This document shows positions 343 through 38,816 of a stretch of 38,816 nt of DNA, piece by piece. Origin of the DNA: an uncultured Peptococcaceae bacterium (GTDB lineage: Bacteria; Bacillota; Dehalobacteriia; UBA4068; UBA4997); NCBI GenBank assembly GCA_947625705.1, contig CANQPG010000010.1, forward strand, positions 1-38,816, written 5' to 3'. The translations under genes and the position numbers were made by a program. The notes under the pieces are model-generated. The model was given only the letters and a program-made list of their open reading frames with translations, was not told the origin of the DNA and did no database searches. Position 1 is the first letter of the stretch. Each line of letters starts with the position of its first letter.

Positions 343-3300
343 TCACCGATCGGGCAGTATGATTTCAGTGCGCCGACGGCGCAGGAAGAGGCACCCGAAA
401 CGGACGCCGGCAGTGACCCGCCGCCGGGCGAGGTGAATGACGATGGAGCAGGCTCAGAGGAGGAAACCTCGGAGTCTATTCCTGCGTTGATGCTCATCAA
501 CCCGGGCGTGCAGTTTAAGCAGACCGGCGAGGAGATCGAGGTCTCTGCGATATACAGCATAGCGCAGGAGAGCCCGGTTTTCGCCATCACGGCGCGGAAC
601 GAGGACGGCGAGGCGTTGGGCGGCTTTGTGACGACGCAGACGCTGAACCCCGCGGTATACGCCGATTGGCTGGAATGGACGACTGACGACGCGGAACATT
701 TGGCCGTGACCCCCGGCGAGGTTACCGCGAGCGAGGGCTATTTCACCGCTGACCCGGCGCAGCAGACCAGACTTATCGTGCAGAGCAAGGCGACTTTGAC
801 CTGGCTGGGCGAGGCGAAAGAGGCTTTTGAGGCCGGCGAGGCGATCGAGGCCGCGTACAGCGTAAGTTATACCGGCGACGGCAGCGCGGAGAGCGGCACG
901 GCGTATTTTACACCGGAAGCCACCCCGGAGATGATCGCCGAACAGCAGGCGGCCAATGAGGAATATCAGAAGCTGCTGGAGGAGCTGATGAACCAGCAGA
1001 ACCAGCAGACCCCGCAGGACGAGCAGAGCGAGGAAGAGGCTGCGCTTGAGAGCATGCAGACGATGTTTGGCCAGGCCGAGGATAAGGAAACGCTGGAGTT
1101 TTTGGTGGAGATGTGGCAGGAGCTGAACCTGGGCGACCTGACGCAGGAAATGCTGACCGAGATGGGCGTTGACGTTGACAAGTTCATCGAGCAGGGCGTG
1201 AGCCTTGAGGAGATGGGCGTGTTCACCGAGGCGAAGCTGGAGGAGCTGAAAGCGCAGGGCATTGACCCGATCGAGTACGCGAAGATTTTGAGCGGGGACG
1301 TGACCGAGCCGGCGGACGAGAATACCGAGAGCACCGAGAACACCGACGACCTGGCGGCGGCATACGCCGAGGGCGAGAACACCGAGGACGAGACGACTCT
1401 TGACGAGATGGCGGCGGCATACGCGGCGGACGAGGAGGAGGAAAAAACCGGCGCGAATGATGGCAGCGAGGCCGCTGTAAGCGAAGATACATATAATAAG
1501 GAAGAAACTGAACAGGAAGCGGCGGAACCGGAGACGGCGGGCGGCTTCGATTTGGCGTTTACGCAGCAGAACACGCAGGCGGCGGCAGAGGAGACGCAGC
1601 CGAAAGAAACGCTGCCGCTGGCGCCGATGGAAGTCAGCGTGCCTGAGGTCAGCACGCAGGCGGCTGAGGTAACCGAACCGGCGGCTGAGGTCAGCGAACC
1701 CGAAGTCAGCGAACCGGCTGAGGTTACTGAACCCGAAATCAGCGAGCCCGAGAGCGAAATCACCGAACCGGAAATTGGCGAGGGTGAAATTGGCACGGCT
1801 GATGGCAGTGAACCCGCTGTAAGCGAAGATATATATAATAAGGAAGAAACTCAACCGGAACAGGCTGAAATCACCGAGCCTGAAGCAGCCGACCCCGCGG
1901 TAAGCGAGGAAGCACTGACCACGATGGAGGAGACGCCGATCGAGCCGATGGCGACCGCGACTTATTACGAAATTAAGCGCGGCACGCTGACCCGCGGCGG
2001 CAGCAGCCTGGGCACGGTGAACATTTATTACGACATGTTTGAGTTCGTGCAGAACGGCAGCGCGCTGCGCGGCGCTTTGCAGGTGGGCGACGTTCTGGAC
2101 GTGCATGATGGCGTTAAGAACAGTGACGGCAACTGGATAGACGCCAGCAACCTGACGTGGCTCTCCACTAACCCGAATGTGGCGACGGTGAGCCGCGGCG
2201 TGGTGACGGTTAGAGATGTTGGCCAGACGTTTATCGTTGTGCGCCAGAGCAGCACCAGCAATGTGCTGGGCATCTTGTATCTGAAAGTCACCCCGGCCGG
2301 CGTGGGCGGCAGCAACCCGGTTACGTACATAACGTATCCGCAGGTTGTGGCGGGCGATGCGTTCGTAATGACGCTGAAATCCAACGGCACCGTTTGGGGC
2401 TGGGGCAGCAATCAGTATGGCCGTCTGGCAATGGGCCTGGATAATTCGACGCTTTATGCCCAGCCGACCCAGGCCATGCGTATGGGCGGCAACGGCGAAT
2501 TGACGCCGCTGACCGGCATTGTACGGATCGGCGTGGGGCAGCGCCACGTTGTGGCGTTGGACGAAAACGGCATGCTGTGGAGCTGGGGTTATAACGGCTA
2601 CGGTGAGTGCGGTCAGGGCGATAAAAACGTCTGCACATACGCCAAGCTGGTCAAGGCTCCCTCCGGCAGCGGCTATCTTGGCCAGAGCACCGCTAAAATT
2701 ACGAGCGTGGCTGCGGGCGGTAACTATTATAAAAACGGTACCAGCATGGCGATCGGCGCGGATGGCACAGTGTGGTTCTGGGGTTCGCGCAACAAGTTTA
2801 ATACTACCAGCACTGCAAATGTGGCGACATATACGCTGCCGATAGACCTTTCCACGGTTGTCAGCACGTTTAAGGATATGCTTATCGTTGGCGTTTCCGG
2901 TATCGGCGACAATTATTATGGCATGAAAAAAGACGGCTCGGTTTATGGTTTTGGGCGTTTGGGTGGTGATAAGTATCTTTCCACTTCTAACGGCTTAACT
3001 GCCAGTATAGCCGGCAACCGAGGCCTGTTGTATATTACCCGGACGTATGACGGCGCTGAAGAACTTATGGTTGACGGGAAAGTTAGGGGTGTAGGTTGGC
3101 ATAATTTGGGCAGCGGCGATACAATATCTGCGTGGAGCAGACCCGGTGATGAAGTAACGGATCCGTCCGGCAATACGATGTCCGGCACCACGGCGGCGGG
3201 CAACTTTCCGGTGGCTGCCGGTTCGCTGACTTTCTCTGCAATTCTGAAAGCAGACGGCCATGTTTATACCAGAGGTAACGGCAACTGCACGGCTTTGGGT

Positions 3301-6300
3301 ATACCCAAGGTCAGCGGTTACGGTAATTTCATTAACACCGTGGCGACCGGCGAGCAGGGTGACGCCAGCGGCAAATTGAGCAATATTATCGGCATTGCCG
3401 AGCTGGCTTATGGCACTGACCAAACCCCGGCTAACGGTACGACATATAACAAAGCATCTTATACTTTTGCCATTGACCGCGACGGTTACGTTTGGGGTTG
3501 GGGCTACAATAATAAAGGCCAGTTGGGTAATGGTAAAACAGGCACGACAGAGTATACCCCTGTGATGGTATACTCCGGTATGGAGAATTACCTGGACGCT
3601 TCGGCGGCAACGTATTTCCCGGCTGGTTCGGGCACGACGGTTTCGACGTATGACGCGGCGGTTTCGACATACGGCGGGGACGAAGCGGTATTGACATTTA
3701 CCGCGGGCAGCTCCGACGTCGCCGTGGACTATTACGCGAGCACCGCGGCCGGCGGCGAACGCGTACATATTAAGAACAACACGTTCGTGCGCGCGGACGA
3801 CACCATCTTCACCGCCCTTAAGGTGGGCGACGCGCTGGCGTTCACCGAGGAAGACATTATCGGTGTGCAGGGCGCGTTCACGGTTTGGCGCGATTACGGC
3901 ACGTATGAGCCGGAGAACGTGAGCATACGCTCGCTGAACACCGACGTTATGAAGGTGGAAAACGGGCGGTTCGTGGCGCAGAAGCCCGGCATTGCTACCC
4001 TTATTGTGGAAGATGGCGAGGACGTGCAGGCGTTCTTCAAGATCCAAGTTGTGCCCAACGACGTTCTGGGCGGCGAGACTTTCCCCGATGTGCACAACGG
4101 CTATAACAGCACCACCGCGCTGAAAACCGACGGCACCGTGTGGAGCTGGGGCGACAACACCTACGGCCACCTTGGTATCGGCATGGACGGCACGATGAAC
4201 ACGCCCATGCAGGTAGTGGACGAAGAGGGCAACCCGCTTACCGGCATCGTTAAGATCGCGGCGGGCACTTATAACGGCATGGCGCTGGACAAGAACGGCC
4301 GCGTTTGGACATGGGGCGACAACACGTTTGGTCAGCTGGGCAACGGCGTCACCGGCGGCACCCGCAACTATGCGGCCAAGGTGGAGGGTCTGCTTTCCGG
4401 TAAGGTCATCGTGGATATTGCCTTGAGCAGCGTTGACGACACGCGCACGATGGTTGACAACATGCTGGCGCTGGACAAAGACGGCAACATTTACGGCTGG
4501 GGCACCAACAGGTATGGCGTGGCCAGCCCCAACAGCGCGACGAGCATTAACTTCAACACGCCGCAGGCAACCAGCTTGGAGTCTGGCCTGCTTTCTAATA
4601 TTATCGATATCGAGCTTAGCGGTTCGCATGCACTGGCACTGCGCACCGACGGTGTTTTGATTACCTGGGCGCACGGCAATAACGGACGCCTTATGCGGGC
4701 GGACAGCGTCGGCGATGCGGTCTTTGCGCCGGGTATCACCGATATGCCGCGCGATAAGGTTGTGGGCATGGCCAGCGGCAACGGCAACACGCTGGCGTTC
4801 AACGTCAACGGCGAGATGTATGGCGCGGGTATATCCTCCGGCTATGCGTTGGGCAACGGCTCAACAAGCAACAATATAGTTGCCATCAGCGGCTTTTCCG
4901 GTATTGACTATGACATGCCGGTGGAGGCGCGCATTAACATGAACTCGGCGGTTCTGCGCGCGGACGGCACCGTGGGCACGATGGGCGCGGCCAACCAGCC
5001 CTCTCTGGGGCGCGGCGCCACCGTTACGGCGGGCAGCGTGGGCACGGTTCTGCGCGGCGAAGCCCCCGGCACCAACCAATATCTGACGGATATTATTAAT
5101 ATAGGTAAAGACGGCAACCTTTACAACTGCAACAATCTGTCGGCCATCATTGCCGCGAACGTCAATTCGGCGATTCACGCCAACGGCAACATTTACATGT
5201 GGGGCGTGGACGCGGGGCAGTTCGGCAACAGCACCAACGGCCAAACGTTCAACACGCCGGTGCGCGCTGCGGCGCAAAGCTATCTGGATATCCGGAAGCT
5301 GCTTCTCTCCGAAAACGGCAGCAGCTTCACCCTTGTCGATTATTACAACGACCTTTACGTGCAGGACGGCAAATCCCGTACCGCCATCAAGGTGGGCGAT
5401 AAGCTGCGCCTTGATCCCGGCTCCATCAAGGTGGATACCGGCCTGAACCTGATGTATGACACCAGCTATACCCCCACGGGTCTGACGATGACCTCGCTGA
5501 ACCCCAGTGTCCTCGCCGTGCAGGGTGATGACCTTGTGGCGCTGAAAGCGGGCATTGCCTGCGTTACCGTGAAAGACAGCAAGGGGGCAGAGGGCTTCTT
5601 CACCGTGCGCGTTGTGCCGGCGGAGGAAGGCTTCATCGCCTATCCTGAAGTCGTCGCGGGCGCAAGTTTCGGCGCGGCCTTGAAAGCGGACGGCACCGTC
5701 TGGACTTGGGGCTACAACGCTTACGGCCAGCTGGGTATCGGCACCAACGACGCTTCCACCATACCCGTGCAGGTTATGCGCTGGAACGACGCCAACAGCC
5801 AGCTGATCCCGCTGGACGGCATTGTTAAAATTTCGCTGACCAGCACTTCGCTGGTGGCTCTGGACGAAAACGGTTATGTTTGGGCTTGGGGCGACAATCG
5901 TTGGTACGCTCTCGGCAACAACAACACTGAAGCGTCCTCCAATGTCGCCAAGCGCGTGTTGGGTCATCGCTATAACGCCACCACCCACAGAAATTACCTG
6001 CTGGGCGATGGTACTGACTCTGCGCGCATTGTGGATATTTCCGGCTCGTCCGACAGAACAGTTGCCGCCGTTATGGCGCTGTCTGCCGACGCTAAGCTTT
6101 ACGGCTGGGGCAATACCTTGATGGAACCACAGGCTACCACTATGGCGGCGTATACGGAACACGCTTTGCCGGTTGATCTTTCTGCCCAAAGCGGCTTGCT
6201 GCGCAACGGCACCCAGATTGAGGTGTTGAGAGGTACTACCGTCGCTTATCTGCTGCAGAAAGACGGCACGATTGTTGCTTGGGGTCTCAATAATGCTGGG

Positions 6301-9300
6301 CAGATTGGTAATGGCGTTGTTGGTAATGACACGGTTGCAGTACCTCCGACAATCGTTAAAATGTATCCGGAAAAGGCTGTGAACGTCTCCTCCGGTTATG
6401 CTTATGGCAACGCAATTACTATGGATGGCAAGCTTTGGGGTTGGGGTCAAAACGCCTTTGGCGGTGTTGAACCTGGCGCAACTTCCGCTGCCAACATACC
6501 TTTGCCTCAGGCGGCGGCTTCCTATAACAATGATGCTAACCTGAATGTTGTGCAGGTGGGCGGTTTTGCCAACAATGCCGTTTTGAAATCGAATGGTCTG
6601 CTTTATACCGGCGGACGTAATTATGGCTCTTCCTCCGGCAGCTATTGGTTTGGGTGGAACGCTGGCCGCGGCGAGAATGTGGCCTCCGGCTCTGTTGGCT
6701 ATGTTCAGGCCGGGCAAAGTTCGGCTACCAGCACCGACCCGCTGACTGATGTTATTGCGGTTTCGGAACCTTCGGTGATTGATGCAGCCGAAGCAGCGGA
6801 AACACAGCAGCAAAGAACGTATCACTTTGCCATTAAGGAAAATGGTTCGGTTTGGGGTTGGGGTATCAACTTTAATAATTTGGGTAACCCCAGCCTGGTC
6901 GCTGGGCAGGTATATTATCAGCCACAGCGTACCGGCAACACTTTCCTGGTGATGGATAAGTACCTTTATAATATGGCGCTGAATGAGAGAGTTACTCCGG
7001 CTACGCCTTACGTTGACGCGTTCAACGTCTTCGACGCGGGCGGCGGCGCGGTGCCGACATCGGGTCTGCATTGGCGCACCTATGACGGCAAGAGCGACAT
7101 TGTCAGCGTTAATTTGACCACCGGTGAGATGACAGCAACCGGTATCGGCACGACTTGGGTCATCGCCAACGTAGTGGGCGATCCGCTGGTTTCCGGTGTT
7201 ATCAAGGTGGAAGTCACCCGCGAGGGCGGCGTGGCTTTCCCGCAGTTGGCTGCCGGCAGCAACCATACGCTGGCGCTGAAAGCGGACGGCACCGTTTGGG
7301 CTTGGGGCGAAAATAACTATGGGCAGCTGGGCAGCGGCCAGGGCAACGGCCAGGCCGATTACCCGCAGCAGGTCGTCTCGCCCGACGGCACCGGCTTCCT
7401 CGGCCAGGAGTCCCCGATCGTAAAGATCGCCGCGGTGGGCAACGTCTCGGTCGCTTTGGCCGAGAACGGCACGCTTTACACCTGGGGCCAGAACCACAAG
7501 GGGCAGCTGGGTCATGGCACAACTTCGCAGTATGTGGCCGTCCCGACCCCCGTTTTGAAGGGCGAACAGAGCGGCGTCACCGGCAATAATCTGCAAAATA
7601 TTCTGCAAATTGCCGTGGGCGGCGTAGATAATGACAATATCTTTATGCTGGCTGTTGACGATACCGGCGCGGTTTACGGCTGGGGTTCCAACAGCGACAA
7701 GCAGATCGTTAACCGCACGGACGTCAGCTTCACTGCACCTGTGTACACCGGCTATGCCGACGGCCGCACCGCTGCCATCGGCAAGGGCGCCACGGCCTAC
7801 GTGCTGCGCACTAACGGCTCGGTTTACGCGACCGGCCGTAACACCAGCTATGAAATGGGCTTGGGCAACCGCAGCGCGATGAGCTCTTCCATGCTGGTTC
7901 CCATCAAAGACAAGATCTTTGCCATCGCAGCGGGCAGCTTGAACGGCGTGGCGGCCACGTATCATATTGATACTGCCACCGATAATGTGGCGGTGCCCGG
8001 CGGCCAGGTTTACGGCTGGGGCGCCAACACCAACAACATGCTGAACAACAGCACCGGCGGCTTGATCACGCCTACCCTGCTGACTGACCGCGGCGGTTAT
8101 CAGCTCTTTGGCGGCGGCGACGCCATGCTGTTTATGGAACGCTCCACGAACAACGTGCTGCACGCCACCGGCCTTGGCACCAGCGGCCAGCTGGGCGACG
8201 GCACTTACGTGAACACCAACAGCTCCGCTCCAATGAAGACCGTCTCCATCGACACTGTGGGCACCCCCACCAGCACTTCTGACGTGCTTTCGGCAGCCAC
8301 TGCCACCATCGGCTCTCACACGATGTTCGTCAACCGCGACGGCTCGGTTTGGAGCGTGGGCAGCAACGGCTCGGCTCAGCTTGGCTTGCAGACGGGCGCG
8401 GATAAGATCAATCTGGCGCAGTCCGTCAGCGAACAGCTTGCCGTCGATTATCCGACGGAGGGCGTGCTGCTGCATGTCGGCGAGAGCGCCAGCGTCTCCA
8501 CCTTGCTGACGGTTAAATCCAACTTCAATTTGTTATATGACCTGCCCGCAGGTTCCTATACATATACCTGCGAGCCCTGGAACACCGAAATTGCTTCGGC
8601 CAGCGGCATGGTGCTGACCGGTGTACGCACCGGCGAAACTTATGCCGCCGTCACGGTGAGCAATGCCGCCGGAACCGCCAGCCGCACGTTCTACCTGCGC
8701 GTTTCGGTCGTCCCGAACGACAGCGATTTTGATAACCCCGCCGACAAGTATGTGGTGTACCCGATGGTGGCCACCGGCAGCGGCTTTACGGCTGCCCTGC
8801 GCGCCAACGGCGACCTCTACGTCTGGGGCGATATGAGCTATGGCACGGCCAACGCCAACCAGGCCAGCCAGTATATTGAAACCACCCCGCAGCGTGTCCT
8901 CTCCGGTATCAAGCAAGTGGCGGCCGGCGGCGACTTCCTGCTGGCTGTGGGCAGAGAAGGTCAGGTTTATTCCTGGGGCGCGAACGGCCAGGGGCAGCTG
9001 GGCAGCGGCGACACGACGCCGAACCTGACGCCTTCGCTGATCTCGTACTTTACCGATAACGACATTAAGATCGCCAAGGTTTCTGCGGGCGGTGTGGCCG
9101 GCAGCAGCTTTGCTTTGGCATTGACGACCAAGGGCGACGTTTACGGCTGGGGCGTCAACGCGGCGCGCCAGGTATCCCCGCTGACGGTGGCCAGATTTAC
9201 CGAGCCTACTTATACCGGCATCGGCAGCGCCATTGACATCGCGGCGGGCGCTCTTAACACCAGCTATGCCGTGAAGAAGAACGGCACGGTGGCCATCTGG

Positions 9301-12300
9301 GGCGGCAACACCAACCGTGAGCATGGCCAGAATAATACTTCCACTGTATATGGCAACTCCGTTTTGAAGCTGGCCAATCCGGTGGTAATGATCGCGGCCG
9401 GTTACGGCGACGCGTTTGCGCTCACCAGCGCCCAGCGTGTGTTCACCTGGGGGCGCAACAACGAAAAGCAGCGCGGCACCACCACCCAGAATGTGCCCGA
9501 GGTCAGCAACAACCTGCGCGGCAGTATTCAGATCCAGGGCGGCAAGAGCACGCTGGCTTTGATCAGCAGTACTAAATTTAATGATGATACGTTTATCAGC
9601 AACGGCGAGGTTATGGGCGCCGGCCAGAACAACTACGGTCAGTTGGGCGACGGCACCAATACCACCGGCAGCACTTTCCACAACGCTGTGCCCGGTGTGA
9701 TATCCCAGACGGCGCCGAAGCTGCAGAACGTGATCAGTATCGCAACGGAAAATAACAGCGCACATTCCGCCGGCGTGATGGAAGACGGCAATGTGATCAC
9801 CTGGGGTCTCGGCAACTCCGGCCAGCTGGGCAACGGCCGCCTGCTGAACACCAACACCCCGGTCTTCGCCGGCGTTAAGGAATTGAAGCTGAACGTGGGT
9901 CATCGGTATTTGGCCAAAGTGGGCTCGGCTCCGCTGCTGATCACGGCCAACGTATCCGAAACCTTTAACGTATTTAATAATTCGACAACCAGCTACACTG
10001 ACATCTTCACGGCTTCCACCGAACCGCGTGTAGCCAGGGTCGATGCGGAGAACCGCGTCTACTTTGAGGGCGTCGGCACGGCCACCATTGTGGTTTACGA
10101 AAAACAGGCGGGTCTGTACTCGCTGGTGCAGGTATCCGTGCTGCCCGAGACGGCAGATTTGAGCAATACCGATACTAATTTGAATGACGTCTTCCCGCAG
10201 ATCGCCGTGGGCGCCTCCCATTCGTTGGCGCTGAAATCCGACGGTACGGTTTGGGCTTGGGGCAGCAACAGCAACGGCCAGCTGGGCGACGCGTCGATAA
10301 CCGACGCTACCTCCGGCAAGCCGATCCAGGTCAAACTGGAAGGCGGTCAGCCTTTGACCAACATCAAAGGCATTGCGGCGGGCGAAAACTTCAGCCTGGC
10401 GCTGACCAAGGACGGCCAGGTTTACGCCTGGGGGCAGAATAACTTTGGCCAGATCGGCCAGGGCACTGCGGCAGCTGTCAACGAGACGTCGCCGGTGCTG
10501 GTTGTGGGGCCGGACGGCGGCACCACTACTCTGGGCGATACCACTACCGGCGCGGTAGCCAAGATCGTGGCCGGCGAGCATAACGCCATGGCCATTATGG
10601 AGAACGGCGCGGCCTATGCCTGGGGGCGCAATGACAACAACGAGCTGGGCACCATGCACACCGGCGCGAATACGCTGCCGATCAAGGTGGTTGGTGTGAA
10701 CAACGCGATCGACGCGGCGTTCGGCAGTAACCACGCGGTAATTCTGCGCGCTGACGGCACGGCGGCCACCATGGGTTATAACCAGAACGGCCGGTTGGGT
10801 CTGGGCAATACGCAAAACAAGAATACGCCGCAGCAGGTGCTGAACCCTGAAGGCTCCGACGCATTGTTCGGCGTGGTGGAAGTGGCTGCCGGTGAGATCG
10901 GCACGCTGATCAACACGCTGCAATTCAAAGATGATAACTTCACGAATGTTGTATATGGCTTCGGCAGCAACGGCAGCGGTGAAATCGGCAACAATGCCAC
11001 CGGCGCCACCAACAAACTGCCGGTTCCTACCAAATATATTGATCCCGACGGCGACGGCACGGCGGTCAATCTGACCAACGCCAGCCACCTGATCTCCGGT
11101 AAACAGTTCAGCGGCGTTATTTATGACGATCCCGCTGTGGCCGATACCGAGATCAAGGGCAACCGCAACGTGCTGATGTTCGGCACCAACAACGCCGGCC
11201 AGTTGGGCAACCGTGCTTTCGGCGGCAGCTCTAAGGTGCCGACGGCGGTTTACAACGACTCGCTGACCGATGATTACTTCCGCAACGCCATGCTGCTGGC
11301 CACCGGGCCGACCAGCCAATATGTGTTGGCTTCTGATATTAACGGCAACCTGTATGCCTGGGGCGTCAACGATCAGAGCCAGCTGGGCGACGGCACCACG
11401 CAGGCTTCGGCTCTGCCTATTATGGTGGGCAGCTCGCCGATGACGATGGACGCCATGATGCGGCTGAATTTGACTGATAACACCACCGGCACCCTGACGG
11501 TGAACAATGACGGCAACCTGCTGAACCTGTTTGGCGCGGCTGGTGCGGCTGGTTCGCTGGAATGGCGCGTGGTTGATGACACTGTGGTCTCCATCAGCGC
11601 TGATGGCGCCACGTGTACGGTTAATGCCCTGAGACGCGGCGAGACCACCGTTCTGGTGAAAGACAGCGTGACCGGCAAGACGGCGGCCTGCCGTGTGACG
11701 GTTTCCGATGGCTTCACTAATCCGCAGCTGACGATGGGCAAAACGCATACCGTGGCCTTGAAGAGCGACGGCACCGTTTGGGCCTGGGGCAGCAACGACA
11801 AGGGTAAGGTCGGTATCAGCAGTGAACAGACCAGTATCCCGACGCCGCTTAAGCTGGAATATTTCGTCGATCCGGAAATTCCCGTCGAAAACGGCAATGA
11901 ATTCGAGTTTAAGGATATTATAACTATCGCGGCGGGCGGCGAGCACACCCTGGCGCTGAACGATCAGGGCGAAGTGTTTGCCTGGGGCAACAATAACTAT
12001 GGCCAGCTGGGCGTTAACCGCACCACCATGGCTTATGCCGACCAGCCTGTTCGCATTAACGGCCTGACCAATATCGTGGCCATTGCTGCCGGTGCTTACC
12101 ACAGCATGGCGATGAACAGCAACGGCGAAGTGTTCGTCTGGGGCCGCAACAACGCGGGTCAGCTGGGTCAGGGCAACTATGATACCAGCGGCAACACGCA
12201 GAACCCGACGCCGGTTAAGGTCAAGGGTATCGGCGGTTCCTCCACGCTCTCCGGCGCTATGGGTATTGCGGCGGCTTCTTACAGCAGTGCCATTTTGCTG

Positions 12301-15300
12301 CCCAGCGGCAGTGTGCTTACCTTTGGTGATAACACCAGAGGCGTTCTGGGCACCGGCGCGGCGCCGACCGATCTGCCGCGTTCCACGACGATCACCAACG
12401 TGCGCGGCCTGTCCGACGCCGTGGCTATCGTGGGCGGCGGCCGCAACTTTGCGGCTTTGACCTCCGACCGCGAGGTTTATGTATGGGGCGATAACCAGTC
12501 CCTGCAGTTGGGCAACCATGAAGTTATGGGCGGTTACAGCGCCACGCCTGTGCCGGTGACCACCGGTTGGGACGCCAACCTGGCCAATGTCACCGATATC
12601 AGTATCGGCGGCTATGATCTGACGACCGGTTCCGGCGCCAACACTGTTTCCAGTATTCAGATGATCGCCATGACGGTCGACGGCACGGTCTACACTTGGG
12701 GTTCTGCCGCTAACGGCAAGCTGGGCAACGGGCAAACGGAAAATCTTGCCGTGGCGCAGGAGCTGGTCAGCGAGCCGACGCTTACGGCCATGGACGTGGC
12801 GGCCGGCGGTATGCATACCGGCGTTATCGTCGAGAACGGTGACGTTTATGTTTGGGGTTCCAACAGCGATAACCAGCTGGGCAACCTGAATATGGGCAAC
12901 AATCAGCTGAACCCGGTCAAGGTGGGCGAGGATTACGTCTACATTGCTGAGGGTTATCACCACACGATCAAAGTTGGTCAGGAAATAACCGTTACGCCGG
13001 TATTCCAGCCTTTCTTCAACGTGCTGGCTAATGCGGCTGATGACACGACCTTTACATTTAATTCGGTCTATCCCGGCGTCGCCACCGTGGCGGCGGCAGC
13101 TGACGGCAAATCGGCCAAAGTGACCGGCGCGGCAGCCGGCCGCGGCGTGATCATTGCCGACGACGGCAATGGCCATAAGGCTTATACTGAAATTACGGTG
13201 CTGGACGCTGCTGCGGATTATCTGGTTATCCCGCAGACTTCCGCCGGCGAGGGCTTCACTGTGGCCGTGGACAAGGCAGGCACGGTTTACACATGGGGCC
13301 GCAACGATAAGGGTCAGTTGGGTGACGGCGATAACAGCGGCAGCAAGCGTATCTTCACGCAGCCCATTGATTTCGGCTTCACCAACGGCGAATATATCAC
13401 CCGCATTGCAGTGGGTGTGGATCATGTGCTGGCACTGGCTTCCGACGGCACGGTTTGGGCTTGGGGCAGCAACGCCAGCGGCAAGCTGGGCATTAACGCC
13501 ACCACGGCGGTCACGCCGTACAGCACGGTGCCGGTTCAGGTGGCATTGCCGGATATCGCGGGCGATATTGCAGATATCGCGGCGACGGCTGACGCCAGCT
13601 ACTTCATCACGCAGAACGGCAAGCTTTATGCCGCCGGCAAGGCTTCCGGCAGCACGGGCTATGGCATTGCGCCGACAGCGCTGAGCCTGTTTACCGAAAC
13701 GGTCAGCGTTTCCGGCAGTTATGCTCTGAAGGCTGACGGCTCGGTTTGGACTATTCCGGCCAACAGCACGGAAGCTTCGATCGCGAAGAAGAACGGTCTG
13801 GACGGCAAGGTGATCATTGCCGCTTCCAGCAGCTTGGATACGCCTAACCACACGCTGTTGATCGACAGCGAAACCAAGGTGTGGGCGTTCGGTCAGAACA
13901 GCAATGGTGAGCTTGGTATCAACGAGCGCGGCGAAGGCTCTGATCAGCCGGTTCAGGTACGGTCGCTGGAGGACGGCGGCCAGTTTACGGGCGCCCGGCA
14001 GGTGGCGGCCGGCAACGGTTACAGCCTGATACTGACCAATAATGGCGCTGTGTATGGCTGGGGCGCCAACGATAAGGGTCAATCCGGCCAGGCAGAGGTT
14101 GACGGCAGCCCCGCTGCCGCGCAGGCACTGCCGTATATGGTGATCTCTTATCCGAAATTTGACGAGACGAACAATACCGCCAACATCACCTGGATCGACG
14201 CGGGCACGACGCATAGCTCCAGCGTGGATAACGAGGGCTTTGTCTGGAGCTTTGGCGCGAATGAAAACGCCCAGTTAGGCAATGAGGACGACATGGACTC
14301 GGCGCAGCCCGTTTTGGCGGGTCAGCAGCAGATCTCCGTGGATCCGCAGGTGATCGATATCCTTACCGGCAGCTCTTTCGATCTTAAGAATGGCACCGAT
14401 CTGAACGGCAACCAGCTTAAGCTGGCGCTCTCGGATAACCTGAACCTGCTGCTGCGTCCCGGCGATACGGTGGGCACGTTTAAGGCCAGCTCGCTGAACC
14501 CGAACATTTTGACGGTGGAAAGCGATATGGTCACTATCACACCGCAGGTGGAAAGCGGTCAGGCAATTCTGCGGATCGTTGACACGACCAGGGGCGATGT
14601 GACTGCGGCTTATATTACGGTCAACATTCACAGTACGGCGGATACGGTGCTGCCGATGATCGTCGGCGGCGAGCAGTTCACCGTGGCGCTGAAAGCCGAC
14701 GGTACGGTCTGGACTTGGGGCGACAACACCTCCGGCCAGCTCGGCCAGAATATGACGGCGGACGTATTGAGCGGCAAGACCGTTCCGGTACAGGTGGTAA
14801 GCCCTGACGCGGCTGCCTACCTGACGGACGTCAGATATGTGGTGGCCGGTAAGTCTCATGTACTGGCTATCAGCAAGGTTGGTTCCGATTATAAGGTTTA
14901 TGCTTGGGGCGATAACTTCTACGGCCAGCTGGGCACCAACCAGCCGGACGCGGTGGTGGCCGTGCCGACCGAGATCGTGCTGCCGGAAGAAAACGGTCAG
15001 CCGGTTGTGCCGGTTCGGGTGAGCGCCAAGGAAAACACTTCCTATATGTTGACGCAGTCCGGCAATGTTTACGGCTGGGGCGAGGGCTTCGGCAGCGTTG
15101 ATACGCCGCAGAAACTCAACTGGTTCACCAATGTGGTCGGCCTTTCGGGCGAATATGTATTGACGGTTGACGGCAGCGTATGGCAGGTTGTGCCGAACGC
15201 CATGCCGGAGAAGATCTTCGGCTTCAAGGGCGGCACGAATGGCCGCGATGACGTTGACGTGGTGAAGATCGCCGCCGGTTACGATCATCTGTTGGCGCTG

Positions 15301-18300
15301 GATAAGAACGGCAACGTTTGGTCGATCGGCAAGAACGGCCACGGTCAGCTGGGCCGCAATAACAGAACCGATAACCCCTCCAGACCGTATATGGTTCTGA
15401 AGGGTGCGCAGACGAATACCGGCGATTACCTGGCGAATATCGTGGATATCGCGGCCGGCAGATATTGGTCGCAGGCGCTGGATAAGGACGGCGCGGTTTA
15501 CGTCTGGGGCTACAATGCCAATGGTCAGCTGGGCAACAACGAGACGGCAGATGCGCTGATCCCGACTGTTCCGGCCAGAAAGACCGAGGATAAGATCATG
15601 ACCGCTCTGGGCAGCGGCTATGACCTGCGCCTGGAAATTGAACAGGAAGGCACGGTTTGGGGCAGTGGTCTGAACAGCAGCGGCCAGCTGGGCGACGGCA
15701 CGACGACTAACCGCTTTACGCCTACCGTGGTGGGCAGCAATGAGCTTCAGCTGCTGCTGGATAAAGATACGACCGATGCCGATAATTCGTTTGAGGTGGT
15801 TCTGGGCACGATCTATCTGCACGCGGGCGACACCGCGCAGTTAAAGGGCGGCTTCAGTGTATTCAACCTGTATCAGCCCAATGTTGAAGCGGACGAATTC
15901 GCTTATCATACCAACAACAGCCCGGTGGCTTCCATCGTTGAAAACACGGGTATTATCACGGCCAACGCACCGGGTATTGCCTACATCAGTGTGGAAGAAT
16001 CCGGTTATACCAAGGACGAGGCTTTCCTGAAAGTTATCGTGCTGCCGGAGGGCGCTTCTTATGACTTCCAGCCGAAGATTTTGACGAATGGCAGCCATGC
16101 CGTGGCGCTGCGCCATGACGGCACCATTTGGAGCTTTGGTATCAATTCCAGCGGCCAGCTGGGTGTGGGCAATACCGCAAACACCGACGTGCTGACGCAG
16201 ATCAGCCCGACCGGCCATACCTTTAAGGAGATCGCGGTTGGTTATAACCATACTCTGGCTATCGCGGAAGACGGCACGGTTTGGGCGGCCGGCGATAACG
16301 GCTACGGCCAGTTGGGCACCGGCGGCGGCAACAGCAGCTCGATGACGCAGGTGAACGGCCTGACCGATATCATGGCCATCGCTGCCGGCAAGAACTTCAG
16401 CCTGGCGCTGGATAAGACCGGCCGGGTTTATGGCTGGGGCAACAACGAAAACGGCGAGATCGGCCTGGGCAACGCGGTGAACCGTCAGATGACGCCTACG
16501 CCGCTGGGTCTCAGCAGCATTGCCTTTATTTCGGCGGGCGCGGAACATTCGCTGTTCCTGACTGCCAGCGGTTCGGTTTATGCCACCGGCAGCAACCGTT
16601 ACGGCCAGTTGGCGATCTCCGGTGAGACTGTTGTCAAGACGCCGGTTCTGGTCAGCAGCCTGAACGATATTATTCAGATCAGTGCCGGTACGGATCACAG
16701 CTTGTTCCTGAACCGTACGGCCAGCGTTCTGAGCGTCGGCAACAACACCGTCGGCCAGCTGGGCCGCGCGGGCAGCGCTACTTCGACGCCTGCCATGGTG
16801 CAGAACGTTGACAGTATTATGGAGATCAGCGCCGGCGATCAGCACTCTTTCCTGCTGGATAACGAGGGCTATGTGCGCGGCTTTGGTCTGAACGATAAGG
16901 GTCAGCTGGGCAACGGTTCTTACACCGACCAGAGCGATCCTCTGCGCAACACGTTCCTGATGAATGACGGTATCCGTGCTAATCAAATCAGCGCCGGCAG
17001 CAAGTACACCGTACTTTCTGACGTCGACGGCAACGTTTACGGCTGGGGCGATTACACGCAGGGTACTGTTGCGGTCAACCGCAATGAAACCAAGAGCAGC
17101 ACGCCGGTTCTGATCGGTGAAAGACAGCAGCTCATCTATAACGATAATTTGACGGTTCCTGTTGGCGGAACGGTTACGCTGGACACTTACTTCGGCGATA
17201 AATTCAATTTGCTGACTGAGGATACCAGCAGCTCCGGCGGCACCTTCGAGTATCATATGCAGAACGAGGACATCGCGGAATGGGGCAGCGCCACTTCCAG
17301 CGGCGTGGAGATCACGGGCAAGACGCCCGGCGTCACCCACCTGAAGATCTCGCGCGGTGAACTCACTTCGATTTGTATCATTTCCGTTACCAGTGAAGAC
17401 GGCGTGGCTATGCCGATGGTTTCCTCCGGCAACGCACACAGTCTGGCGCTGAAAGCGGACGGTTCGGTTTGGGCTTGGGGCTATAACTATTATGGCCAGT
17501 TAGGCGACGGTTCGCAGAATTCCGCCGCTTCCCCGATCCAGGTGGACTTCTCTTCCATTCTGGACGCCGGCACCAACATCGTGGCGGTCTGCGCCGGCGA
17601 GTATCATTCTCTGGCGCTGACCAACAAGGGCGAGGTTTACGCCTGGGGCGATAACAGCCGCGGCCAGTTGGGCTTGGGCGTTACCGATGACTTTGTTACC
17701 ACGCCCACCAAGGTTGGCGGTCTGCTGGAGAACAGCATCATCACCAAGCTCTCGGCCGGTGAATGCCATACTATCGCGCTGGCAGCAGATGGCAGCATCT
17801 ACGCCTGGGGCGATAACCAGAAAGGTCAGCTCGGTATCGGTTTGGACGTTGACTCCCGCCGTGTACCGGTTCAGACCATTAACATCAACAAGGCCGTCGA
17901 TATCAGCATCGGCGCGGGCGGCAACAGCACCAAGGCGGTTCGTTATGACGGCACGCTGTGGGGCTGGGGCGATAACACCGCACATCAGATCGGCGGTATC
18001 GGCGCTGCGGCCGGTGCTTCGGGCATTGCTGAGCAGTACCTGAAACCGGAGCAGATCAGCCTGGGCGAATACGACGGCAAGATCGTTCGTACCTATGACG
18101 GCAAGAGCCACGTTGTTGTGCTGCTGAATGACGGCAAACTGATTTCCTGGGGCTATAACGGTGAGGGTCAGCTGGGCACCTCGGCCAGCGCCAGCACCAG
18201 TCCTGACTTTACGCCGTCGCTGGTAAGCGGCTTTGACGGCCAGCCCGGCAAGTATGTGGTATCCGTGGCCGTTGGCGCCACCCATAACGTAGCGCTGCTG

Positions 18301-21300
18301 GACGATCAGAGCGTTTGGGTATGGGGCGACAGCGCCCAGGGCCGTACCGGCCTGGGCACCACGAGCGACCAGCCGCTGCCGACCAAACTGCCGCTTAATG
18401 GTGCAAGTGAATATCGGGCGGTCGGCGTAGCCACCGGCGGTGCGTTCTCCACTATTGTGCTGGACGACGGTTCGGTTTATGCCACCGGCCAGAACACTTA
18501 TGGCCAGTTGGGCAACGGCACTTCCGGTAAGTCCGGCGAGTTTAAGAACCCGGACGAAGCCGATAAGAACACTTTAACGCGCGTAGTCGGCAAGACTTCC
18601 AGCATTACCCCGGACAGTATTCTGATCCCGGCCGGCGGCAGCGTAACGGCCACCGCCAAGTTTGAAAGCTTCAACCTGTTTGACGCCAGCACTATTTCTA
18701 CCACCGTTCAGTGGGAGATCATTGAAGAATTGCTGAAGCGCGACCCTGCCGCGGACGCGACTCCTTCCGCGACCACCGAGGGCGAGACCCCCGGCGAGGA
18801 CGAAGAGGTTACGTATGACCCGGCGGGCAGTGTCGCCACGGTTGACGCGAATGGTCTGGTGGTTGGCATTGCGCCCGGCACTGCCAAGCTGAAAGCTACC
18901 GATACCGTGACCGGCTATACCAAGACTATTGATATTCAGGTTGTTGAGGCCGGTTCGATCAGACCTGAGCTGATTTGGGTCGAGAAAGACGCCGCCAAGG
19001 CTGTTCTGGCCACGGCAGCCAAGGAAAAGGGCTATCTGGCCGACGACGAGTTCGATACGACCACTAACGATTATAAGAACATCAAGGGTCTCTATACCGC
19101 CAATCCCGAAATCGAGGGCGATTATGGCACGATCCGCGTCAAGAGCTTTGTCAGCGAAGACGTGATCGAGCTGGTGGATAAGGCGGGTACGCCGATCGCC
19201 GGTGTGACTGCGACGAAGAACAACACGGCCGGCAGTCAGTTCAACGGCTATTACGAATTTACCAATGTTCCGATGCCGGAGAGCCAGCTGGCTTATGACT
19301 TCTATCTGAAGTTTACCAATAATAATGTCAGCCCGGCCTATGAGGGCATTTACAAACTGCATGTTATCCGCTATTCGGACGACCGCGGCCTGTATTCGCT
19401 GATCGTGGGCAACAACATTGATAATCCCACAGTCGCTGATTTGACGGGTCTGAACGTCAATAATCCCAGCGATTTCACGGCGGCGCGTTTGGGCGACCGT
19501 ATCAAACACGCGGATCTGGCGGCGCTCACCACTACGGCGACGCTCACCAGTGAGCCCAATCACTACATCTACATTCTGGACGACACTAACGTGGCCACCC
19601 AGAACCAGCCGCGCGTATTGTACGTATACGCTGCCGGCCATGCCGCTTCCACTATCAAGGTGGACGATATTCTGGTGAACAGCGACCACAAGACGGAAGA
19701 CAGCGCGGTTCAGCCTATCCACAGCAACAGCCTTGACGCCCAGATGTTCTACATGGGCAAGGACGAAAGCGTTGTTAACGTGCCGATCCTGGTGACGGCG
19801 CAGAACGGCCAGAGCAAGAACTATTCGCTGAACATTTACCGTCAGTCGGTGGTTACCAATCTGGAGTCCATCACCGTTAAAGAACATGAAGGCACGCGTG
19901 AATACACCGCCTATAAGACGGGTCTGAACACTTATGAAGTGCGTCTGCCCGCCGGTATCAGCGCGGTTGATATCACGACCACCGCGGCGGTCGCCGATGT
20001 GGCGCCGACGATCAAGTACATCACCGGCACGCAGACCACCGCTGAGTTGGCCAATCCGGCCACGCTGGAGAACCATGCGCTTTCCGGCAATGTATCGCAG
20101 GATAGAGTGAATATTGAGGTCAAGGTTGGCAGTATTGTCAGCCAGCCGCAATACACGCTGAATATTATTACTACCGGTGACGAGGCCAATAACGCAACGC
20201 CGGCAGTCACCGTCAGCAATGACCGTATCGGCACGCAGACGTTGACCGAAAACCCGGCCGGGCGTTATGAATTCAGTGTCGACCGTCTGCAGGATAAGCT
20301 GACGCTGAATGTCACCACGCTGCTGGCAAGCGGCACCGTCAAGATCGGCGACTATGAGGCGCAGCCGTATCACAGCAGCCGCGAACTGGATATTGATATC
20401 CCGCCGGCTCCGGGTCTTGGTTATCAGGACTTCCCGTTTGTGATCACCGGCGGCGGCACGACGAAGACATACACGTTCCGCGTCTATTACAGTGACGCCG
20501 ATGCGCGCTTGTCGAGCATCACGGTTACGCCGCAGAGCCCGGCCGGCCCGGCCAGAAGCGCGGTTTACGACACCGAGGAGGACGCTTACATCGCCTCGGT
20601 TGGCTCCGGTACTACCAGCGCGATCCTTACGATCAATGCTGTTGACACCGGTATCTCGCTGTCGGTGGCGGCCACGGATGCCGACGCCAGAGCAGGCTTG
20701 GCCACAACAACGTGGACCAGCGGCTATTACAGCAACGTGCAGACTTTGGACGCTGGCGCTGATACCGTGCGTTATGTTGCGGTACGTCCTGCCGGCAGCG
20801 ACTATGGCGACGGCAATTATGACCGGGTGTTCCGGGTCATTATCCGCAAGATGTCCGGTGATGTAACGCTGACGCTGAAGTATGGCGATGATACGCTGAC
20901 GGCTGATACCACGGCGGATCCCACCGGCCATACCTATAACTTCCTGCTGCCGCGTTCCGCTGACGGCACGGATAACACCGGCACTACTGCCGCGCCGAAG
21001 GATTTGGTGGCCAAGACCACCAGCAGCGCGGCCAAGGTCGTGCTGAGCAACCAGGTGACGGGCGTGACCATACCGGCCACGGCCACCGACACTGACAGCG
21101 TGACCTTTACCACCGGTCTGCCTGTGACGCCGAATAAGACCACTTATTATGCTTACGTTAAGGCGGAAGACGGTACCACCGATACTTACACCATCAATCT
21201 CTCCAAGCGCACGGCCAACACCTCGCTGGACGCGACTGACGGCGTTAAGGTTATCGGCACGAACGGCACTTATACTGCCACCTTTAACAGTGCGACCAAC

Positions 21301-24300
21301 ACCTATACTGTAAGAGTTCCTTATGAGGCGACGGTCGATATTGCCGTGCAGCCGCAGGATCCCGACGCTTATGTGGCGCTGGATAGCGACACCGGCCATA
21401 TTGCGCCGACCGGCACCCCGGCAGTGGCGCTGTTCGAGGATTATGCGCTGACCGGCGCCGACAGCGGCCGCATGACTACCACCATGTATGTGCAGAAGCC
21501 GGACGGCATTAATCCTTCCACTTCCTATACATTGGTAATTGAATACTCCTCCGGTGATACCACTTTGCGTTCGCTGGACGAGCGCACCGATTACGCGGGC
21601 AAGATCCGCAGCGTGACCGGCGAGCCTGATTATGACTATGCACTGGGCGTCAACGCGCTTGATATTACCGACGGCAAGACGCTCACCCTGCGGGCTGAAG
21701 CCACCAGCCGCACCGCCAAGATCTACATTGATCTGTTGGACGGCAACGGCTACATCACTGATGACACCTATGTTATCACCAAGGACTTCACGCTTAACGC
21801 CGCTTTGATCAGCGCGGGCTGCATCATTAAGATCAAAGTGGAGCCGGAAGACGGCGGCACGCCGGCTGAATATGGTCTGAAGATTTATCAGAAGTCCAAT
21901 AACACGGCTCTTACGGCGGTTAAAGCGCCGGTGGTCACCGACGAAGCTGCGTCGCTGACTTATGATAACGATTTGGGCGGCTATGTGGTTTATGTGGAGA
22001 ATAACCGCACGATCCTGCCGATCCGCGTTATCGCCGCTGACGACCAGGCCACCATCGCTTTGGGTGCGCTGAACGATACCACCCAGCCCACCGGCGGTTA
22101 CAGCAGCAGTGCTGATTATACCAACAGCCGCTATTCCATTGCGGGCATTGACCTGACGACTGAAAACGTTATCTATATTTACGTTAAGGCCGAAGACGGC
22201 ACCGTTGCTCCGTATAAGCTGTTCGTGAAGTCTCAGGACGGCAGCAACAAGCTGGATAAGGTCGAGGTACTGGTGGGCAGCGTATGGCGCGAGGCTACGG
22301 TTGACGCCGACGGCAATTACAGTATCAATATTGCCAATACGGTGAACACCGTTGACGTTAAGGCGACGGCTGAGTCCACAAGCGTACGCGGTATCACGAT
22401 CAACGGCACCTATAACAGCAAGCCGGAGCCCAATGTGGTCATCAAGACCGGCGTGGCTGCGCCGACTACGGCGGCCAGCCGTGTGGCGATTGAGGTTACG
22501 GCGGCCAACGGTGACGTCAAGACGTATTATCTCAGCATTAATCATGTTGCCGTCAACACCGATTTGGGCAGCTTGAAGGTCAACAACCACATTATCAATG
22601 TGGCGGCGCCTCTGCTGATCGACGGCAAGACCTACTATGCGCAGCTGCTTACCGCGGCTGACGCCGATCCCGGTACGATCCTGATCTCGCCCAGCGACAG
22701 CAATTCCAGTGTGAAGCTGGAGCTGATGACGGCGACCGGCTCCACGCCGGAGGGCATGCAGTATTCCTATACGGAAATTACGCCTGCCGCTGACGGCACG
22801 TGGAATGACGTTAACTTTAACCATAAGTCGGTAGATTCCGGCGACCCGAGCGATACCACGCTGTTCCGTATCACGGTTACGGCGGCGGACGGCTACACCA
22901 CCGCGCAGTATATTCTGTCGGTCAGCTTCCCGTCCTCTGACGCCGAGCTGGAATACGTCAAAGTGGGCGACTATTACGCCCAGAAGGACGCCGACGCCGA
23001 TATTTGGCGGGTGGCGATCCCCGAAACCAGCACTTTCGCCCGTGTTACCATGAAGATGCTTGATGTTTCCGCTTATGTTGGCGAAGACTTCTCCAACACG
23101 CAGTGGAAGCAGGCTATCCATACCGAGACGATAACCGGGCTGTACCTGCAGGGCGGCAATACCGAAACCAAGTCCATCTATGTAATGGGTTCCAACGGTA
23201 TCCCGAAGGCTACCCCGTATACGCTGATCATCAGCGGCAGTAATGAGGCTGTAGGCGTGCAGGAGGTTACGGTGAACGGTCTGCCGGCCACCGCTCCGAC
23301 GGCAGATGAAGAGAATTACGTCTTCAATGCGCTGCTGCCCAATGCTTCCAAGGCCAGCGTAACGGTGGTGTCCAACAAGAATACGGCCAATGTTCAGATC
23401 GAGGCCAACAGTCCTGAAGCGGGGCGTGCCACTGCCGAAGTTGATTTGGCAGCCGACCCGGCTGAGGTCACTTGGGTGAACTTCACCGTCAGCGAAGGCG
23501 ACGAGGTGCTCGGCAGCAAGCTGAAGATGACCCGTCTGAGCGACGATTACCGCTTGAACCTGTGGCTGGACGGTGAACAGAACTATACCGTGAACGCCGA
23601 CGGCTCGTATTCCTATTACGTTGACGCCGGTGTGACCGAAGTTGACATCGAGGCTATTGCCGATAACCAGGCGTATATCGTGACCATTAACGGTTACAGC
23701 GATCAGTTTGGTTCTTCCAGCAGCGTCGATAACGCGGTCGATCCCACGCAGAACGCGAAGCTGGATAACTCCTATCTGTATAAGATGGGCACCAATGACT
23801 TCTCGCTGGTGACCGTGACGGTGAAAGCCGCTGCGGGCGACGCCGTGTTCGCCACTTATAACGTACGTATTTACCACAAGGCGAACAACACCGGTATTAC
23901 CTCGGCAATTGCCAACCCCGATACCGATTACGAGACCAAGGATACCGAGGCCGATGTGCTGTATGAGGGCACTGAGCCTTACGGCGTGTTCGAGGTTTAT
24001 ATCCCGATCGATGCTGATAACCCGAATAAACCGGTTTATCAGGCGAACATCAGGATCACGCCGGAGGATTCCAACGCCGAGATCAATCTGAATAATGCCG
24101 GCTTCACCGTGGGCACTGTGGAAAGACAGTTGTCGCTGATGAACCCGACGGATATCAAGGGCGACGGCGTGATGGGTTATATCGTTCCGATGGTGGTCAA
24201 GGCCGCCAACGGCGAGGAAATGCGCTACGAGATCCACATCTTCCGCATTAATATGCAGGCGGATCTGATCAAGGTTTCGCATAACACCGCGTCTAACGAA

Positions 24301-27300
24301 ATTACCCCGGACGACAACGGTATCTATAACGTTTATGAGCGCAAGGATAAGACGGGCTCCAGCCTGATCTTCCAGTCCTCGCCTGATACCTGGATCGAGA
24401 TCTTGCAGGAGCAGGGCGGCGTGATGACGCAGCTGGTCAAGAGCGACCGCACGCAGACCAATTCCAACATCTTGTCGGTATCCGATCTGCCGGTCAACGG
24501 TTTGGCGACTTTGGCTGATGACCAGTATCTGGAATACACCGTTATTGTTCATGCCAAGGACGACTCCGATTATTCGCGGCCTTATACGCTGCGCATTTAT
24601 CCGCAGAGCGACAATCTGGATATTAAGGTTTACGTCAACTTCGATGGTGTGAACGACATTGAAGTTGATTGGGATACCATTCAGCTGATTTACGACGGCA
24701 GTATCCCGATCGGTGTGGAAAATGCTACCATTAAGGTGGTGGCGGCCAATCCGTTCACCAAGGTTGGTATTGACAGCACAACCGATATGCACGAGGGCAG
24801 CTGGTCTCAGGATATTAACGTGCCTGCCGCCAACACCAGCGCACAGTTCAATATCTATGCCACCTCGCAGAGCGGCACTGATTTGACGACCAGCGGCAAT
24901 ACCGGCCGTATCCTGAAGCTGACGAGAAGAAGCAATGACAACAGCCTGAACGCCACCGACGTTATTCGTCTGGATACCACTCCGTTTGAAGCAGCCGAGG
25001 TGGACGGCGACGATTATGTCTTCTATATTGATAATAACCGGGCTCCGTTCGATGTTCGTGTGACCCCGGCGGCCAGCACGGCTTATGCCCGCGTTGGTTA
25101 TTACCGCAACAACACGGTTGATGACAGCAACTGGGTGGGCTGCGATTGGTCGACTTCTGCCGGCCAGGCGGTTGAGCATGAGGTTTCCATTGACGAGAAC
25201 GGCGGCCATTATCTGATCGAGATCATGGCTGAAAACGGCGACGTGGCCACTTATAACCTCTATATCCGCGCCAAGTCTGCTGATACGTCGATCAAGAGTA
25301 TCGTCTTCCAGGAAGGCAAGGTCGATCAGTTCAACGTTGACACCGGCAGTAATATTAACGTTATCTATGACGCCAATGTGGCGCAGGGCGCTTTCAGCTT
25401 CAAGATCGAAACGAACGAAGCGCACGCAGTTATCGAGGAGATCGTTCAGGTCAGCATGGCTGACGACACTGTGAGCGATATGCCTGCCGGCAAGACGGTG
25501 ACCTATAATGCCACCACCGGTTTGTATTCCATTGACAGCGGCATTGCCATCGGTTCCAAGGAATTCTACCGTATCAAGATGCTGGCGCATAACGGTGCAA
25601 GAAAGAACTATTACCTGCGTCTGACGGGCGCTTCCATCGACCTTAAGGTGACAAGCGTTAAGGTTGAGGAAACGACCAAGACGGCGGGCGACAGCAATGG
25701 CCGCTATGTATTCAACGTAGCGGAAGGCACGCCTAACGTTCCCGTTACCATCACGGCCAACACCGAAGCCAGGATTTACAGCATCAACGGCACGGCGATC
25801 ACGGCTCCGGTGGGCGCGATCAATGTTTGGAACGACAACAATTATGCTCTGGATACGACGGGCGACAGCACCGTTATCACCTTCGTGGTGGCGGCGGGCT
25901 TCTATCTGAACGACCAGAGAACGCCGAACGCCAAGGCTACCTACACGGCCGAGATATTCAAGGCCAGCAACAGCGTTTCGGTGGCCAGCGTGACGGTGAA
26001 CGGCGAAACGGCGATCGCCGACGCGAGCAACCCGACTATCTATGAAGTGGCTCTGCCCTCCACAGATACCTTGCCGGGCACCGATGTCAGCGGCAAGAAC
26101 CCGGCGCACATCATCATCAACGCGGTCAATGGCTTCAGCACCATTGAAATGCTGAAAGATGATAACACTACCAAGCAATCCGATATCGGCGAACTGACGA
26201 TAGACCGTACCACTAAGAACCCGGCAACAGACGTCGTCAATGAGTTTGACTTTGATGTCATTTCCTCCTCCGGCACGTCGAACCAGCACTACACGCTGTA
26301 TGTTTACCGTGACGCGGAAGAGATCGGCCTGGAAAGCGTCTTCTTCGAGGGCGTTGAGCTGATCGACGGCGCCAACACGGAGATCCTGCTGTTTGAGGAA
26401 CCTGCGCCGACCAGAGAATACACCGTTACGGTAGATAATCTGGCGCCGGTGACCCTGCGTATCAACGCCAAGGGCCGCATGGCCAATGTCCGGGTATACG
26501 GTGATACGATCACGACGCCGATCGTACAGCGGGCGTCGCTGCCGGTCACCAACTTGGCGCTGAATGACGGCGTGACCAACTTCTATTTCGAGATTTTGGC
26601 TGCCGACGGCATCAACGTCAGCGAAACCTATCATATTACTGTTAGATACACCGGCCAGCCCGAAGGCCGCCCGATCAGCGTTAAGTATGCCAACCAGGCT
26701 GCTGTGGCGGCGGATTGGGACGACCACATCTATCTGCTGAACGTTGGCAGCAGCGTCAACAACGGCCGTCTGGAGGTCGTGGCCAGCAGTATCAGAGAAA
26801 CCGTGACTTATAACACCGCCACTTCCACAAACGGCGAGCTTTCGGTTCCCAACCTGCCGGCGCTCTCTAACCCGACGGTATTTGAATTCAGCATTACGGC
26901 ACCGAACGGCGTCGATGTTGAGAATTACAAGCTGTACGTCATTAAGGGTCTGGCGACGTTGTCGAACATCACAGTTAATGACAACACGCCGACGCAGGCC
27001 AGCGCCTCGCGCTACACCTATAGTGTGGTGCCGAATGCGACTATGGCCAAGATCAACGTGACGGCCAGCATGGACGTGGCCCGCATCACTATCGGCTCCG
27101 ACGCGCCTGCCTATGGCACGGCGGAAAGCCGCGTGGCGCTCAGCAGCGGTTCGGTAACCACTGTTCCGGTCACCATCTCGGTTTATCCGTATGATGCGGC
27201 CAACAGCTTAAATTACGAAGTCGAGATCAGCAAGTACAGCAACGATCTGCGTCTGGTCAGCGTACAGGTTCAGTCCGGCGGCGTCTATAAGGTGGCGCAA

Positions 27301-38697: not shown

Positions 38698-38737
38698 GGA
38701 TACTATCCTAACAACTCACGCTTACACATACGCAATT

Positions 38738-38783
38738 AAAGCCTCAGTCATCACTTTTGGAGAGTGAAGGTTGAGGCTTTTTC
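38738..38783 (+). terminator. Rho-independent terminator of the giant gene
   Basis: AAAGCCTCA (38738-38746) pairs with TGAGGCTTT (38772-38780). The stem continues inward through two G-U pairs, a C-G pair, one A-A mismatch and TCACT / AGTGA (38751-38755, 38763-38767), closed by a 7-base loop and followed by a short T run. It lies 40 bases after the stop. Confidence 0.9.
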
Positions 38784-38816
38784 ATATATTGATTTGGAAT
38801 TCACTACCGGTGATTC
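38784..38816. other. Short downstream flank
   Basis: AT-rich sequence with no gene. It ends in an imperfect inverted repeat GAATTCAC / GGTGATTC (38797-38816) cut by the window edge, which may be chance. Confidence 0.4.

Follow-up and report, generated by a model that had tools for sequence, protein, structure and literature searches.

Eleven seven-bladed RCC1-type propellers alternate with Ig-like domains in a giant, putatively surface-tethered protein of an uncultured Peptococcaceae bacterium

RCC1-type propellers of eukaryotes occur mostly singly or with few per chain. Repetitive propellers of the RCC1/BLIP-II type are already known as a group found mostly in bacteria, among which BLIP-II is a secreted bacterial seven-bladed member (PMC9218822), as is the protein described here, though BLIP-II itself is a single small disc. 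Giant surface proteins have been described in abstracts on a 7651-residue adhesin of Mobiluncus (PMC10619420) and on Giant1-5 of Apilactobacillus, which occur in small genomes (PMC12863079). Our protein is likewise very long, secreted and built of repeated beta domains, but its head is an array of discs, and alternating propellers are absent from those abstracts. In the limited set of literature searched, no paper on RCC1 with dockerins or on alternating propeller/Ig arrays was found, and a single paper, PMC6083626, contains both RCC1 and dockerin. With the RCC1-like domains (RCC1, UVR8 and the RLDs of HERC1/2; PF00415/PF25390) the giant protein has in common the seven-bladed fold, the blade motif and significant homology, with sequence matches down to 3e-106 (HERC2, UVR8), and its match to BLIP-II is weaker (5e-14). 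Unlike those domains, it is bacterial and secreted and carries eleven discs per chain in alternation with Ig-like domains, and neither Ran guanine-nucleotide exchange nor UV sensing is expected of it.

The window, by which we mean the whole stretch of DNA analysed (38,816 bases), is an entire contig (C10) of a 1.6 Mb genome that is in 70 contigs and 92% complete. A single open frame on the + strand spans it, from an ATG at 259, with AAGGGG upstream, to a stop codon ending at 38697 (12,812 residues), and the long frames on the opposite strand most probably arise from codon bias as shadow frames. The preliminary description of this DNA had placed a propeller/Ig array at 1948-18951 and likened it to beads on a string with RCC1/BLIP-II kinship. 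The span, the bead-like layout and the kinship are all upheld by our analysis, but that span leaves out some 6,500 residues of cadherin-like stalk and a broken C-terminal end with a dockerin-like motif, and the protein extends far beyond the array, which forms its N-terminal half. At about 2.4% of the genome, the giant gene must either bring a large benefit or have been acquired recently. Pfam searches of the giant protein found no catalytic domain and no carbohydrate-active domain, and no family in the acidic region at 343-1947. The features of the window are:

259 to 342, + strand: clear signal peptide MITKHKRFSKFLSILLLLSMVFSSTVYA (by reading of the sequence)
343 to 1947, + strand: acidic low-complexity N-terminal region (sequence, Pfam)
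1948 to 2331, + strand: Ig-like domain 1, BIG2 type (linker-family profile)
2305 to 3576, + strand: RCC1 propeller 1, seven blades, 4-5 degenerate (Pfam, blade profile, Foldseek)
3577 to 4077, + strand: Ig-like domain 2 (linker-family profile)
4051 to 5277, + strand: RCC1 propeller 2, seven blades, blade 7 degenerate (Pfam, blade profile)
5278 to 5637, + strand: Ig-like domain 3 (linker-family profile)
5611 to 6936, + strand: RCC1 propeller 3, seven blades (Pfam, blade profile)
6937 to 7233, + strand: Ig-like domain 4 (linker-family profile)
7207 to 8433, + strand: RCC1 propeller 4, seven blades (Pfam, blade profile)
8434 to 8754, + strand: Ig-like domain 5 (linker-family profile)
8728 to 9879, + strand: RCC1 propeller 5, seven blades (Pfam, blade profile)
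9880 to 10188, + strand: Ig-like domain 6 (linker-family profile)
10162 to 11436, + strand: RCC1 propeller 6, seven blades (Pfam, blade profile)
11437 to 11715, + strand: Ig-like domain 7 (linker-family profile)
11689 to 12930, + strand: RCC1 propeller 7, seven blades (Pfam, blade profile)
12931 to 13224, + strand: Ig-like domain 8 (linker-family profile)
13198 to 14328, + strand: RCC1 propeller 8, seven blades via homology to propeller 9, blade 4 unsupported by score
14329 to 14646, + strand: Ig-like domain 9 (linker-family profile)
14620 to 15741, + strand: RCC1 propeller 9, seven blades (Pfam, blade profile)
15742 to 16065, + strand: Ig-like domain 10 (linker-family profile, Pfam, AlphaFold)
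16039 to 17121, + strand: RCC1 propeller 10, seven blades, 28 strands as 7x4 (Pfam, blade profile, AlphaFold)
17122 to 17406, + strand: Ig-like domain 11 (linker-family profile, AlphaFold)
17380 to 18561, + strand: RCC1 propeller 11, seven blades (Pfam, blade profile, AlphaFold)
18562 to 18969, + strand: Ig-like domain 12, above the Pfam Big_2 cut-off (linker-family profile, Pfam)
18970 to 38688, + strand: cadherin-like (PF12733) stalk (Pfam and self-built profile)
27652 to 29250, + strand: GLUG-like repeat stretch inside the stalk (GLUG likeness by eye)
38689 to 38816, + strand: probable mobile-element end, with the 14-bp TTCAGTTAAGGATA and a terminator-like hairpin

Blades were counted with a 36-residue profile built from the clearest blades of the giant protein itself, with gapless calls at 24 bits or more. 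We detected 65 such blades in 11 groups, against a best score of 5.2 in 20 shuffles, and the protein's other half gave no blade with the same profile. The gaps between the 65 fit exactly 12 more blades at the expected spacing; 11 of these are degenerate, yet score within the top ~0.1% of background positions. The last, blade 4 of block 8 ('YALKADGSVWTIPAN'), has the first half of the motif only, without the WG, and as its score gives no support we count it provisionally, via its homologue in block 9. The 65 profile blades and the 12 gap blades thus give seven blades in all 11 blocks and 77 in total, the number first counted by eye, now as 65 strong, 11 degenerate and one by homology. Pfam places RCC1 or RCC1_2 above the curated cut-off in every one of the eleven blocks, with WD40_RLD also matching, and certain blade spacings in blocks 8-9 are short (37-46 residues).

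The 12 linker segments, one ahead of each block and the twelfth behind the last, have lengths of 93-167 residues and form one family with the BIG2 pattern. Pfam Big_2 (PF02368) was found at E<=1 in 5 of the 12 taken singly, and their joint profile matches the Ig-like domain of Nup210 (3e-11), S-layer proteins (7e-7), Sap and the BIG2 domains of intimin, with E-values from 3e-11 to 1e-5. With all 12 segments in one family homologous to BIG2 structures, the strict alternation of propellers and Ig-like domains, closed by a twelfth Ig-like domain at the end of the array, stands as originally described.

AlphaFold models were made of block 1 and of blocks 10 and 11 together with the Ig domains beside them, and were compared by Foldseek. 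Block 10 was predicted as seven sets of four strands, 28 in all, with pLDDT mostly 65-90, and aligns with UVR8, a closed seven-bladed disc, at a TM of 0.87 and an rmsd of 2.2 over 363 columns; because of this match to closed seven-bladed discs, we infer that the disc is closed. Block 1 is among the most divergent and was modelled at a mean pLDDT of 55, yet its best match is still UVR8 (TM 0.78). The mean pLDDT of the two models (55 and 62) indicates moderate confidence, the mutual placement of the discs is unreliable (pTM 0.48) and Ig domain 12 is not resolved in the model. These predictions support a closed seven-bladed fold for at least one disc, where model confidence is adequate, and more weakly for block 1. 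The earlier expectation that separate blocks would fold as closed seven-bladed discs, followed up here on blocks 1, 10 and 11, is thus matched by block 10 but only moderately by block 1.

The eleven propellers are mutually 28-37% identical. Blades in the same position across blocks have a likeness of 38.5, whereas 2,000 permutations reached at most 32.8, and 34.0 with cyclic shifts, and this conservation of blade position between blocks indicates that whole discs were duplicated and then diverged. Blades 1 and 2 contribute most of this signal, whereas blades 3-7 and the spacings are variable, as expected if the frame was kept while the surfaces diversified. Such low identity suggests that the array is either old or fast-evolving. 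Searches for RCC1 repeats in eight genomes of the same genus gave no matches, with a weak propeller match in one, and both gain by this lineage and loss by its relatives are possible.

That the eight relatives are without RCC1 repeats, and that C10 holds one gene and no marker, might also point to an assembly artefact (repeat expansion) or to a contaminating contig from another organism. An assembler could not have copied units that are at most 37% identical, however, and in codon usage the propeller part agrees (correlation 0.92) with housekeeping genes on another contig, C6, which we take from reading of their translations to include clpX, lon, gatAB and guaB homologues. For comparison, a giant gene of a genome from the same order (G028) has a codon correlation of about zero with those C6 genes. 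The codon usage of C10 places it with the rest of its genome, and an element end and a split domain join C10 to C6. Assembly duplication and contamination are therefore rejected on unit identity and codon usage, and an origin of this kind is extremely improbable.

The stalk gave ~39 matches to the self-built cadherin-like profile, of which about two thirds were significant, and is interrupted by the GLUG-like stretch, where a sub-threshold match to Peptidase_M26_N was the only one in Pfam. We found that the stop codon ending at 38697 lies in the 14-bp element end, which occurs genome-wide only at the end of C10 and, inverted, at the start of C6. On the C6 side the element end lies at 1-111 of L018, a C6 locus; the first 84 bases of C6 code for the tail of a DUF4368 protein (E 1.8e-7), a domain that ends large serine recombinases, and past the 14-bp motif a 1,455-residue frame opens midway through a cadherin-like domain. 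Of the 87 profile positions, the last stalk domain in the window has 1-48 and the opening stretch of C6 has 67-87, and the C6 frame matches the stalk in codon usage (correlation 0.96). Given the split cadherin-like domain, the inverted 14-bp ends and the codon match, a mobile element most likely split the giant gene, and there is a strong case that the C6 frame continues it. The stop at 38697 was considered as the natural end and rejected as improbable, because it is inside the element end, which splits a cadherin-like domain. A search around the recombinase genes on contigs C15 and C26 did not find the element's interior. Since the gene is interrupted in the assembly, this strain may not produce the complete protein.

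At its end, the C6 frame has a dockerin-like repeat on each side of an acidic stretch: one matches dockerin (PF00404) at E 0.005, below the cut-off, and the second repeat-like stretch is far upstream, with the long acidic stretch between them. The adjacent S8 subtilase carries a dockerin above the cut-off (E 3e-9), and these two places, within L018 107-6598, hold the only dockerin matches in the genome. Downstream of the subtilase lie large secreted proteins (L018, 6639-18629). Two of these share a 61%-identical N-terminal domain with no Pfam match, and one protein of the set ends in SLH domains; a long near-identical C-terminal region is common to the frames ending at 10085 and 14805. Pfam recognised no cohesin in this genome (G000, 92% complete). 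Proteins beside the dockerin genes that looked cohesin-like by eye found no support in Pfam and PDB searches and were set aside.

Shorter arrays of this kind were detected in G028, where proteins (L046-L049) carry two, three or four seven-bladed propellers with spacers of ~85-95 residues between them, in most cases a Listeria-Bacteroides repeat and in one Big_2. Some G028 propeller proteins end in dockerin or SLH domains, and the genome has 55 cohesin matches. Of the dockerin-ended propeller proteins at L049 and L050 of G028, one is joined to an S8 subtilase, and the orders S8-RCC1-dockerin and RCC1-RCC1-dockerin both occur in this genome. The G028 arrays have fewer discs than the giant protein, and these are more alike (43-76% identity within a protein, against 28-37%). 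In a sample of the phylum, 91 of 399 genomes had a propeller match, and a few other proteins held more than one propeller. One 3,121-residue protein from another family (L095, genome G406) has near-identical 432-residue propeller-plus-spacer units, each of either six or seven blades. The shorter arrays of G028 make the giant array an extreme variant of a wider design: its disc number, divergence and size are extreme among the proteins compared, and the design is not unique.

We consider it probable that this secreted giant surface protein is a surface-tethered multivalent binding arm, with putative ligand binding and attachment via its dockerin-like end. The diverged discs would be putative binding heads for proteins or glycans that nearby cells or particles carry, the BIG2-type Ig-like domains would be joints holding each propeller, and the cadherin-like domains would form a long stalk with the propellers at its far end, held at the cell surface by the C-terminal dockerin-like end. 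Our data establish the anatomy, from which we infer both surface attachment and ligand binding, and the dockerin or SLH ends of some G028 propeller proteins fit the tether; that each disc might bind protein, as first proposed, is plausible for these putative binding surfaces. Against a binding arm stand the lack of a recognised cohesin, the dockerin-like end that is split and below the Pfam cut-off, the interruption of the gene in this assembly, and the moderate confidence of the models. The main rivals are a structural filament and a cellulosome-like component. There is a modest chance that the protein is a filament or sheath in which propellers are rigid spacers or lattice modules with no specific ligand, as the closeness of the Ig profile to S-layer and intimin Ig domains, the very long stalk and the lack of a catalytic domain by Pfam would allow. 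Purely structural repeats often remain alike, however, whereas these discs are 28-37% identical with variable loops, and a strict seven-blade disc would be a costly spacer.

A cellulosome-like component, in which the dockerin-like end would dock on a scaffold shared with the neighbouring subtilase while the discs bind substrate for polymer digestion, is suggested by the dockerin on that adjacent S8 protease and by the dockerin-ended propeller proteins and many cohesin matches of G028. It is improbable here, where the giant gene's genome has no recognised cohesin and Pfam finds no carbohydrate-active domain in the protein. The propeller group, the blade number and the short spacings of blocks 8-9, which we take to be of BLIP-II-like length, fit an array of inhibitors in which each disc caps a secreted enzyme of competitors or hosts, but the sequence is nearer to RCC1-like domains than to BLIP-II, and we regard such an array as quite improbable. 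Returning to the surface-tethered binding arm, the discs might form a diversified repertoire with a different ligand for each, a multispecific capture arm on a dockerin-like tether whose tethered form the mobile element may switch on or off; this extension is speculative and rather unlikely.

These findings indicate that bacteria use RCC1-type propellers as repeated modules on Ig-like linkers, with up to eleven in one polypeptide. The seven-blade disc was kept while its surfaces diverged, which makes this array a testable case for multivalent, and possibly multispecific, recognition by giant surface proteins.
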